Below the pieces are notes generated by a model that made no database searches, was not told where the DNA came from, and saw only the letters and a list, made by a program, of their open reading frames with translations. Of a stretch of DNA of 64,000 nt, positions 29,450-35,762 are shown one piece after another (the stretch's first letter is position 1; each line of letters starts with the position of its first letter). The DNA is from Saprospiraceae bacterium. GTDB lineage: Bacteria > Bacteroidota > Bacteroidia > Chitinophagales > Saprospiraceae. A program made the position numbers and the translations under genes. Where the stretch lies: contig JABSSL010000002.1 of the NCBI GenBank assembly GCA_013214355.1, forward strand, positions 1-64,000, in the 5' to 3' direction.

Positions 29450-30082
29450 CTATTGTACTGAGGAATTTTCTAACCCCTCAGCGGATAGGTTATCATGTAC
29501 TTCTTGTAGCTCTTCGATGTATTGGCCATACATCCAGTGCATGTATTTTCGGGTGACAAACCAAACAATGACGCCTAGAACTACTGCTGATACCCCTAAG
29601 ATGATGAGTAGTGTCCAAGGTTGTACCATATCCGACCAATCTCCTCCTGCCTCAATGAATCCCATCATAAAGCCTAAAGTGTAGCCTATTGGCATCACGA
29701 TATATAGTAGGATTTTAGTACGCTGGTAGGATTTGCGGAAAAGTTGAAGATATCCCGCCACACTTTCTTTTACATTTTTCGTGTTGATTGATCTGAACTT
29801 CTTTAGCATCCGATAGACACTGTAACCTGTGCCGAGGTACAAGAGTATACCACCTCCGAGTAGATAGCCGATCAAAGGGTTTTCCGCAAAAAAGAAAAAT
29901 AGGCCAATCCATAAGGCAATGCCAGCAATCAGCTCGATCAAAGCATTTTGCTTCATCCGTTGGATGATATTGGAAGATCGTTGACGAGCCATCCGCATAA
30001 CCTCTCCTTCCAGTTGATCATAATAATCACTGGCCTCCTTGTCACTGTTCTTCCATATGGCATTCAGATCAAATTCTTCCAT
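29450..30082 (-). CDS. membrane protein overlapping an ECF sigma gene (putative anti-sigma-like regulator)
   Basis: The 210-aa protein has a soluble N-terminus of about 45 residues, four hydrophobic helices (about 48-66, 68-90, 125-145, 155-178) and a polar C-terminal tail. It overlaps the upstream sigma factor gene by 14 bp, so the two are translationally coupled. This arrangement is that of a sigma/anti-sigma pair, but there is no classical anti-sigma domain or zinc motif. A second pair with the same order, size and membrane pattern lies at 60.3-61.4 kb. The regulatory role is inferred from context only. Confidence 0.65.
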   Translation of the reverse strand: MEEFDLNAIWKNSDKEASDYYDQLEGEVMRMARQRSSNIIQRMKQNALIELIAGIALWIGLFFFFAENPLIGYLLGGGILLYLGTGYSVYRMLKKFRSINTKNVKESVAGYLQLFRKSYQRTKILLYIVMPIGYTLGFMMGFIEAGGDWSDMVQPWTLLIILGVSAVVLGVIVWFVTRKYMHWMYGQYIEELQEVHDNLSAEGLENSSVQ

Positions 30083-30584
30083 ATCCCTTTTCGCTTAATA
30101 ACTTATATAGTCGTTTTTTGATGCGCATGATCTTTACCCCTACATAATTGGTTGTGATACCTATGATGTCGGCGGATTCTTCGTATGATTTTCCTTCTAG
30201 ATGCAAAAGAATTAGAGCTCTTTCATCTTTTGGTAGTTCATTAATGCTTTGGTAGAGTAGATCTATTTTTTGTTGTTGTTTACGTTCTAAATCCAATTGC
30301 GCCACTCCATCATCTGCTTTTTCCATCATCCAGGCAGTAACTTGGGTGGTGGGTGGCTTCCGTTTTTTCTTCTTGGTAAAAGTCAAGGCGGTATTCAAAG
30401 CCACTCGATAAATCCAAGTCGAAATTTTAGCCTTTCCCTGAAAACGAGCGAAAGAATTCCAAAGCTGGATCAGCATCTCCTGATAGAGATCATCGAAATC
30501 CACTTTCTCCGAGGCATAAGATCGGGCAATCTTATAGAGGATGCCGTTATGCTCAGCGATAATATGCTTGAAAGTTTCTTCCAC
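30069..30584 (-). CDS. ECF-type RNA polymerase sigma factor
   Basis: The 171-aa protein starts with GTG at 30584; no ATG alternative fits. Region 2 (YKIARSYASEKVDFDDLYQEMLIQLW, then FQGKAKISTWIYRVALNTALT) binds the -10 element and core RNA polymerase. Region 4 (LPKDERALILLHLEGKSYEESADIIG, then VGVKIMRIKKRLYKLL) is a helix-turn-helix for the -35 element. The small size and the two-domain layout define the extracytoplasmic-function class. The overlapping downstream membrane protein probably controls it. Confidence 0.92.
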   Translation of the reverse strand: MEETFKHIIAEHNGILYKIARSYASEKVDFDDLYQEMLIQLWNSFARFQGKAKISTWIYRVALNTALTFTKKKKRKPPTTQVTAWMMEKADDGVAQLDLERKQQQKIDLLYQSINELPKDERALILLHLEGKSYEESADIIGITTNYVGVKIMRIKKRLYKLLSEKGYGRI

Positions 30585-34086: not shown

Positions 34087-34649
34087 GGCTAAGGTTTTAC
34101 TGGTTTAGGTATAGCATGGTATCAGAACGTGTTTGGTCAAAGCTGATTAGTCAAAAGTGAGCTCATCGAATTTGATCAAAAACATTCTTAAGCTTGTAAA
34201 AGAAAGATTGGTTAGTTCTTTCTGTATGCTTGTACACGCCTTATTCTTTTCAGATCGAGTACTAGGACTCCTCTGCCATAAATATGCATCTACATGATTT
34301 ACAGGCTTTCCAGATTTACATCCCATTGACATTTTTCTATCATAATGGAACTACAGTCTAGTAAAGGACATAGTTAGTAGAAAAGCTTAGGAAAAGAAAA
34401 GAAATGCAGACTTTTTTGTCTTGTCTGTTTTCATTCCCCGCCTTGTTTTTTTGGATTGGAATAGGGGGAATGTCGACTTACCGCATCTTAATTACGACAT
34501 CAATAGCTAAGTAGAACCACAATCTTGTCCTATTCTGACGGGAAACTCCCAGCAGATAGAGATGGATTGCTTGTAAAATGGATTTAGGTCGAAAATGTAA
34601 GATCTAGATTGCCACACAACTAATTATCCATTAATTAAAAAATTATCCG
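34087..34649. other. 560-bp intergenic region between divergent genes
   Basis: This region lies between the starts of the serine dehydratase (minus) and the histidine-ladder protein (plus) and should hold both promoters. A 61-codon minus-strand frame at 34147-34332 has no ribosome-binding sequence and no recognisable content. An 8-bp inverted repeat, CATTCCCC...GGGGAATG (34432-34472), is visible with a 25-nt loop. Nothing else was seen. Confidence 0.4.
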
Positions 34650-35762
34650 ATGAAAAGAGCTGCGCAACATCTCGTCTTGTTTTTAGCAGTAATGGTATCT
34701 ACCACTCACCTTTCAGCCACTAAATTAGGAGAAGTCAGTAAGACAATTAAGCGCGATTTCAGCATTACTGCCGATGGTAGTACTAGCATTTCCAATAAGC
34801 ATGGGAAGGTTGAAATCAACACTTGGAATCAGAATAAAGTGAAAATTGAAGTGGTTATTCGTGTGGAATCCCGCCGCAAAGAAGACGCACAACGATTATT
34901 AGATGCTATCGATGTGGACTTCTCAAATACTTCCAGTTCCGTATCTGCTACAACTGTCATCGAGAAGATTTCAAATAAGTGGTGGAATGGAAATAACAAC
35001 CGGATGAAGATTGACTACACGGTTCATCTTCCTGCCACTAATGATCTTGCCCTAACTCATCGGCATGGCCACGCCGCTATTGATGACATGAAGGGTAGTG
35101 TAGACATCAATTTCCGACACGGAGAATTCAGAGCAGGGGACTTAGGAACCGAAGCTCGAATTGATATGGCCCATTCTAAAGGTTATTTTGGCAGTACAGG
35201 GAATATCGATGCCTCAATTGCCCACGGAGGGCTATATGGTCGATCTGCTGGAGATTCAGATGTGGACGTTCGTCATGCTACTTTTGAATTAGAAGAAGGA
35301 GGCTTGATCACTAGCCGATCAGGTCACAGTAGCTTCAATTTAGGAGCGATAGCTGGCTTCAGATCAAGCAGCAGTAGCCACGATAGAATTCGTATTCAAA
35401 ATGCAGATGTGGTTAAAGTGAATGGTAGTCACTCCAGTGTACGAGTAGGTAAAGCCACAAAAGAGCTGGAGTTAGATCTTAGCCATGGTGGGGGTACAGT
35501 AGGTCTTGGTGCAGGATTTACCAATGTAAGCTTAGTCGGCTCACACGCTAACTTTGGCATTGAAGTTGATCGTGCAGCTGCCTTTAGTATGGAAGCTAGT
35601 ACACAGCATGGAGGACTTACCTATCCTAGTGGAATGGATGTACGATATCACGTTGAGAAAAACCATAACAAGACCATTAAAGGTTCGATTGGTGGTGATT
35701 CAGGTAATGCTTTGATGAAGGCTCGGCTTTCTCATGGTAGCTTGAAGGTGACGCAAATGTAG
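34650..35762 (+). CDS. DUF4097-like beta-solenoid protein with a periodic histidine ladder
   Basis: The 370-aa protein has a signal peptide (about 1-23). A Bacteroidota-type domain follows: SNKHGKVEINTWNQNKVKIE, KISNKWW, then IDYTVHLPATNDLALTHRHG. From about 130 on it is a regular repeat of short strands, each with a His next to Gly or Ser. The histidines fall at 139, 157, 175, 192, 209, 226, 244, 261 and 279, steps of 17-18 residues, then 299, 320 and 362. As I recall, relatives carry Tyr-Gly at this place. A solenoid with one residue stacked per turn would line up these histidines on one face. It is secreted or periplasmic, with no enzymatic motif. Metal or haem binding is my inference. Confidence 0.75.
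   Translation: MKRAAQHLVLFLAVMVSTTHLSATKLGEVSKTIKRDFSITADGSTSISNKHGKVEINTWNQNKVKIEVVIRVESRRKEDAQRLLDAIDVDFSNTSSSVSATTVIEKISNKWWNGNNNRMKIDYTVHLPATNDLALTHRHGHAAIDDMKGSVDINFRHGEFRAGDLGTEARIDMAHSKGYFGSTGNIDASIAHGGLYGRSAGDSDVDVRHATFELEEGGLITSRSGHSSFNLGAIAGFRSSSSSHDRIRIQNADVVKVNGSHSSVRVGKATKELELDLSHGGGTVGLGAGFTNVSLVGSHANFGIEVDRAAAFSMEASTQHGGLTYPSGMDVRYHVEKNHNKTIKGSIGGDSGNALMKARLSHGSLKVTQM

Follow-up and report, generated by a model that had tools for sequence, protein, structure and literature searches.

Proteins of the Toastrack superfamily (DUF4097/DUF2154/DUF2807; PDB 3LJY, 3PET, 4OPW, 4QRK) have a fold defined as a right-handed single-stranded β-helix with a seven-stranded intertwined N-terminal region; in some contexts they are operonically linked to a σ factor, and they are proposed to act as scaffolds under the membrane, with a predicted intracellular location (PMC11237479). 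The passages of that review on which we draw mention neither a Tyr nor a His ladder (PMC11237479). Porphyromonas gingivalis formed less biofilm and attached less after one of its DUF2807 proteins had been deleted (PMC10949514). Columns of stacked side chains have been described in proteins of other kinds. The ice nucleation protein is a β-solenoid of 65 16-residue tandem repeats with a Tyr ladder, which was modelled as pointing outward and is the proposed dimer interface (PMC10727499, PMC9418140). The viral leucine-rich repeat protein Crov588 has a His/Tyr ladder along its concave surface to which 8 of 14 polyoxotungstate clusters were bound (PMC9525666), which indicates that such strips can bind ligands. 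In a His amyloid studied by cryo-EM, imidazoles of adjacent layers are 4.7-5.7 Å apart, which was considered too far for consecutive layers alone to form a catalytic zinc site, and a second leaflet was invoked (PMC10008563). Our literature search, which mostly lay outside subscription papers, retrieved no paper on the His ladder described below or on its protein family.

The window is the whole stretch of 64,000 nucleotides that was analysed; it belongs to a genome of 11.2 Mb in 224 contigs. The gene under study encodes a protein, referred to below as q, with a regular column of histidines. The features of the locus are as follows:

34650..35762, + strand: open reading frame of the His-ladder β-solenoid protein (predicted fold), 370 amino acids
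34800..34802, + strand: codon of H51, the ladder residue of the first rung, before an excursion with a helix
35064..35735, + strand: span from the codon of H139 to that of H362, with 12 ladder codons (139, 157, 175, 192, 209, 226, 244, 261, 279, 299, 320 and 362)
34087..34649, + strand: intergenic region 5′ of the His-ladder gene, without a TGCAACC-N12..20-TGTC box

An earlier sequence-only reading of this DNA had listed the 12 histidines between residues 139 and 362, and all are exactly where it placed them; its count was slightly understated, since it missed H51 (context NKHGKVEI), which aligns to the same column and brings the ladder to 13 His. The 17-18-residue period that it reported is also real. 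Within residues 121-370, the longest chain of histidines with 17/18 spacing has nine members; a chain of nine was seen in none of 20,000 residue shuffles (the largest shuffled chain had six). There are eight pairs in which one His is followed by another at 17 or 18 residues, and at least eight such pairs arose in 3 of 20,000 shuffles. The shuffles lead us to reject a chance origin of the ladder. Amplification of a repeat that carried one His was rejected as well: the rungs differ in sequence and use a mixture of CAT and CAC codons, so the 13 histidines arose by separate changes. The neighbour of a ladder His had been read as usually Gly or Ser; eleven of the 12 listed histidines are followed by Gly, Ser or Ala, the exception being H244, which is followed by Asp.

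The protein contains no Cys and has no match to a Pfam family at E<=1. Its N-terminus looks like a signal peptide by eye, and q is probably secreted or periplasmic, a location that would differ from the intracellular one given for Toastrack proteins. The closest named relatives are from an uncultured Lewinella bin (94% identity) and a Saprospiraceae bin (91%). A tblastn search of a plasmid collection with the protein gave no match, and PADLOC found no defence match for three ladder proteins; the gene was accordingly considered neither a plasmid gene nor a defence gene.

AlphaFold2, with an alignment of 31 rows, predicted a β-solenoid for q (pLDDT 92.3, pTM 0.86), in agreement with the solenoid proposed earlier from the letters, and also for a Tyr-ladder relative, L014 (pLDDT 90.9, pTM 0.83). 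Perfect repeats can lead AlphaFold2 to predict false solenoids with high confidence (PMC11795689); that the repeats of the ladder protein are imperfect, together with the size of the alignment, lessens this worry and does not remove it. The q rod would have about 14 rungs, 13 of them with a ladder residue at one corner. In its model, 6 of the 13 rungs have a strand break at ladder offsets 0/+1; offsets -6 to -1 and +2 to +4 are free of breaks, and the remaining seven rungs are drawn as continuous strand at the ladder. In the L014 model, 11 of 13 rungs break between offsets 0 and +2, and single breaks occur at -1 and +2. Both models show a second cluster of breaks around +6 to +9 and none at -6 to -2, +3 and +4. 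With predicted breaks clustered at the ladder offsets, the ladder falls at a single corner of rungs that consist of two strands. The expectation that the histidines would stack in a single column is supported by one aligned column and by the model, in which any strand break near the ladder falls at it.

Structure comparison of the q model retrieved 3lyc_N (Z 17.7, rmsd 2.5, 215 aligned residues, model positions 27-268), the Dot/Icm component 7muc_AM (Z 15.8), 3ljy_A (13.1), 3jx8 (12.8-13.1), 4opw_A (12.8) and 4qrk (11.0); other β-helices scored alike (6f7k_B, Z 14.0; 5zku_A, 13.2). For L014, Z scores were 16.9-17.8 to 3lyc, 3jx8, 3ljy and 4opw and 15.4 to the antifreeze protein 3p4g_C, and Foldseek TM-scores were low (0.19-0.41 in the first 20 rows). 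No solved structure of a sequence relative was found at E<=10. The predicted fold of q is thus like that of the Toastrack superfamily, of which we take 3LYC and 3JX8 to be members. The corresponding sequence profiles do not recognise the gene: PF13349 (DUF4097) hit six places in the genome of q at E<=1 and PF10988 (DUF2807) hit 15, none of them being the q gene or its Tyr-ladder paralogue. Among 31 scanned family members, one matched DUF2807, weakly (E 0.021), and hhalign found no relation between the ladder family and one DUF2807 protein. The earlier description of the protein as DUF4097-like therefore fits the fold, but the DUF4097 profile misses the gene, and we file q as a His-ladder variant of a known fold that belongs to neither DUF4097 nor DUF2807. 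The single Tyr column on a β-solenoid recalls the ice nucleation protein (PMC10727499, PMC9418140) and the stacked His column on a repeat protein recalls Crov588, in which the ligand was an inorganic cluster (PMC9525666); their repeat architectures and, for the former, the function in ice nucleation set both apart from the ladder family by description.

Homologues were detected at E<=1e-5 in 111 of 150 genomes of the same bacterial family. Tyr occupied all 13 ladder positions in 16 of the 34 homologue rows of a first alignment and 751 of the 988 ladder cells of a first table, His-types included. A set of 109 distinct proteins, for which most loci were retrieved by His-type queries and which therefore gives no estimate of prevalence, divides into 71 proteins with at least 12 Tyr in the column, 12 with at least 12 His, two that are half switched (L016 with 6 His and L020 with 5) and 24 other mixtures. 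The earlier reading had placed Tyr-Gly here in relatives; Tyr is indeed the rule, the column does not vary freely, and Gly follows the ladder Tyr in about 46% of rungs. A search of the phylum matched 65 of 296 genomes, and ladders were read for loci fetched from the best of these. One further family of the same class, f25, has Tyr at all 12 aligning positions in 19 of 21 fetched proteins and at 11 in the other two, one rung being absent; the ladders of f29 (two proteins) and f30 (one protein) are degraded mixtures. Given the prevalence of Tyr in the column, including that of the near-pure f25, comparison of the sequences leads us to infer that Tyr is the old state and His the derived one. His-ladders were found in 12 of 398 Saprospiraceae genomes, a lower bound, since matches at E<=1e-100 alone were counted. 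The genome of q itself holds a Tyr-ladder paralogue (32% identity over residues 27-368, E 2.3e-59). It also encodes, in another σ/anti-σ operon (L003/L005, G000:C154), a Tyr-rich solenoid of 430 amino acids in which Tyr-Asp and Lys-Tyr corners alternate by eye.

The His-ladder proteins fall into two groups. In group 1 (q, L006, L007, L008 and L035), His is present at 13 of 13 ladder positions; in group 2 (L010, L042, L043, L044, L104, L105 and L107), the first rung is Phe and the 12 others are His. Two trees were built, one without the ladder columns and the other without these columns and the preceding residue; the first used 73 of 76 rows (L003, L004 and L052 were left out) and the second used 50 hand-picked rows of 109. 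Group 2 branches apart from group 1 on the best trees, and the two were joined in 0 of 200 bootstrap trees, although the bootstrap of the 50-row tree had not settled. The AU test did not reject a single His clade (p 0.199 with 73 rows, 0.177 with 50 rows). Moreover, 14 further sites, among which are M147 and M173 and of which two directly precede a ladder position, share residues between both His groups that are rare in Tyr-types, which may reflect common descent or parallel change. Because of these sites and the AU values we reject the statement that two origins are proven; the His-ladders may have a single origin.

The ladder His are retained over large distances. Both L007 (45% identity to q) and L008 (39%) have the complete set of 13 ladder His, but each shares only one of the seven other His of q. 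Among q, L035 and L036, dN/dS is 0.024-0.039, a rough value since dS is 1.3-1.5 and thus near saturation; in this comparison six of the 13 ladder positions show both CAT and CAC, and all 13 residues are unchanged. These comparisons of coding sequence indicate purifying selection on the ladder His, and a selected, whole-column switch from Tyr to His, as the sequence-only reading had surmised, is well supported.

The residue before the ladder changed too. Lys takes this place at a frequency of 0.45 in Tyr-types and of 0.03 and 0.02 in the two His groups, which mostly have Ser, Ala or Arg instead, and the charge shifts by -0.35 ± 0.10 and -0.30 ± 0.11, respectively. When 19 offsets were compared (five and four His proteins against 47 Tyr proteins), -1 was the only neighbouring position with a change of both charge and size in both groups, and recurrence at the same offset makes chance less likely than it would be for one hit in one group. 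No second column of Asp, Glu, Cys or His was gained with the ladder in both His groups; single acidic gains are D330 in both and E213 and E274 in group 1 alone.

We favour, tentatively and with somewhat less than even confidence, an explanation in which the ladder is a working edge that runs along the rod, binds a ligand or forms an assembly, and has had its chemistry changed as a unit. Less surely, the resulting imidazole strip might bind transition-metal ions or haem. The loss of Lys at -1 would be expected if cations or protonated His had to be accommodated. Since a single His column with residues one β layer apart would make a poor zinc site by itself, the missing ligands would have to come from outside, from a second solenoid or from the ligand itself. 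Metal or haem binding, by one rod alone or between two, is plausible, and it would be the use that we think most likely for the His strip. The gain of single acidic sites, without a second ligand column, speaks against it. A more elaborate version, which we regard as unlikely, would have the 13 stacked His form an imidazole wire as long as the rod, exchanged for the Tyr column rung by rung, perhaps twice, and serving as a metal or haem row or as a proton relay; the Tyr form would be a counterpart with different cargo or charge-transfer chemistry.

The ladder could also be an aromatic stack that stabilises the corner, with no new ligand involved. The side chains of His and Tyr share a flat shape and polarity, a single transition (TAY to CAY) separates their codons, and once some rungs were His, stacking would favour conversion of the rest. 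The half-switched proteins agree with such a course, and so does the finding that the scanned group-2 proteins are ordinary operon copies (see below). Hydrophobic residues recur at -6, -4, -2 and at +3, +5 relative to the ladder; position 0 is in phase with them, as would suit an inward-facing and possibly purely structural ladder. Yet Phe, the closest buried isostere, accounts for just 43 of the 1261 ladder cells outside His-types (34 of them gaps), where the other replacements are mostly polar (48 His and 38 N/S/D/K/R/Q, against four Leu/Val and one Gly), which suggests a partly exposed edge. Each switched rung, furthermore, loses about 40 Å3 that the neighbours do not make good, apart from a gain of 9 ± 4 at -2 in group 1, and the loss of Lys in both groups would be left unexplained. 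On balance we consider this explanation rather unlikely.

A three-gene operon that encodes an ECF σ factor, an anti-σ-like protein and a Tyr-ladder solenoid is common in Saprospiraceae and relatives (L002, L009, L011-L034 and others). The third genes of such operons, in Saprospiraceae and other Bacteroidota, are homologous to q over nearly the full length, with the same, mostly Tyr, ladder column, at 26-36% identity (alignment A2, group-1 His proteins apart). The scanned group-2 members (L010, L042, L043 and L044) are likewise third in an ECF σ/anti-σ/ladder operon. The histidines can thus serve within the ancestral operon and need not mean a new job; the earlier proposal of a new function has the whole-column substitution in its favour but is too strong for group 2. 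No ladder-type σ or anti-σ gene is adjacent to the group-1 genes at the q locus, L006/L036, L007/L037 (L037 spans 5.2 kb), L008/L038 and L035, and these genes are therefore called orphans below.

A box of the form TGCAACC-N15/16-TGTC, whose shape we presume to resemble that of known ECF promoters, is located 5′ of 42 of 60 distinct σ operons; spacers of N12..20 were allowed in this search, and all 42 had N15 or N16. Of 1650 shuffled sequences, 2 carried the same pattern (N12..20). One of the 18 operons without a match, L002, was missed owing to its cut locus, and its box lies at G000:C79:68028. The box was found in none of six regions upstream of orphans, and no N15 box with up to one mismatch is present in the window. 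Its absence indicates that group 1 has probably left ECF σ control. Judging from the position of the orphan outside the σ operon and without the promoter box, its expression is probably separate from that of the Tyr-ladder copy that remains in the same genome.

Such an operon copy is held by the genome of q and by the group-1 genomes G121, G023 and G045, and its Tyr ladder is degraded in each (YHYFHYYYYNFYY in both congeners; YYYYNYFYNYYYY; YHLYDKYYNKSYH). The operon copy has ten or fewer Tyr in 3 of 3 examined orphan-bearing lineages (the genus counted once), compared with 14 of 88 other proteins (Fisher p 0.006, post hoc); rows with at least four ladder His, L003, L004, L052 and L081, a near-copy of L002, were left out. 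This association is of the kind expected if Tyr and His ladders were zipper-like edges that pair two solenoids lengthwise, His making the pairing pH-dependent or specific for like partners. A mixed ladder would then pair badly, which would account for the near-pure columns of the 71 Tyr and 12 His proteins counted above, and the dimer interface proposed for the Tyr ladder of the ice nucleation protein is a parallel (PMC10727499, PMC9418140). However, degraded Tyr ladders are not confined to orphan-bearing lineages, as the 14 others show, and the 24 other mixtures are neither near-pure in Tyr or His nor half His. Pairing of this kind is a possibility that we hold to be on the doubtful side.

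Each of six genomes has 2 to 6 exact box sites, whereas the reversed pattern gives 0 to 3. Two genomes also have the box 5′ of PDZ-repeat proteins, at three sites, and a third has it 5′ of a DUF2807 protein (L166, L159, L147 and L167), hinting at a small envelope regulon. It further stands 5′ of single genes such as those for a cytochrome c, a dioxygenase-like protein and, in two congeners, an AraC-type regulator (Pfam was run on one of the two), and several sites lie inside ORFs. With so few exact sites, we rejected the derivation of a function from the regulon. The same scarcity speaks against a reading in which the Lys-Tyr column binds an anionic or glycan ligand in an envelope-stress σ system and the His version takes a different anion, or binds only when protonated, with an adhesin role of this kind. 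In its favour are the Lys just before the ladder in 45% of Tyr-type rungs, the operon with an ECF σ factor and an anti-σ-like protein, and the box that other genomes have upstream of secreted PDZ-repeat proteins and of a DUF2807 protein, as well as the polyoxotungstate bound by a His ladder (PMC9525666) and the biofilm and attachment phenotype in P. gingivalis (PMC10949514). We judge it to be quite improbable.

Neighbouring genes did not yield a function either. This approach was rejected because no neighbour is conserved outside the genus in the two further orphan loci compared: none in L037/L084 and L038/L085 matches a neighbour in the window. No metal or haem gene was recognised beside the orphan of the window, which counts against the metal or haem reading.

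In the ladder family, an entire column of stacked residues appears to have been replaced, and the family still has pure Tyr, half-switched and pure His members, some inside the σ operon and some outside it. Swapping one type of residue can thereby test what a stacked ladder does in a natural solenoid. The family also offers a first entry point to an uncharacterised σ-operon protein, common in Saprospiraceae and present in other Bacteroidota as well.

The 38 bases immediately 5′ of the ATG of the q gene (34612-34649) are nearly invariant among three congeners, with 37 identical positions and with the last 23 all identical, and the region 5′ of them is largely variable. This segment is a possible operator or leader. 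The sequence AATTATCC is present twice in the window at 34612-34649. On the minus strand, at 29450-30584, the window contains another ECF σ gene with a partner. It lies at a distance of about 4 kb from the His-ladder gene, and two congeners retain it nearby; in the genus, this distant σ factor is weakly similar to that of the ladder operon (E 4e-9 to 7e-8). Downstream of the ladder operon, an ORF that by eye resembles the metallo-β-lactamase fold is present in 11 of 24 compared loci (L046, L047, L048, L051, L081-L083, L096 and L098-L100).
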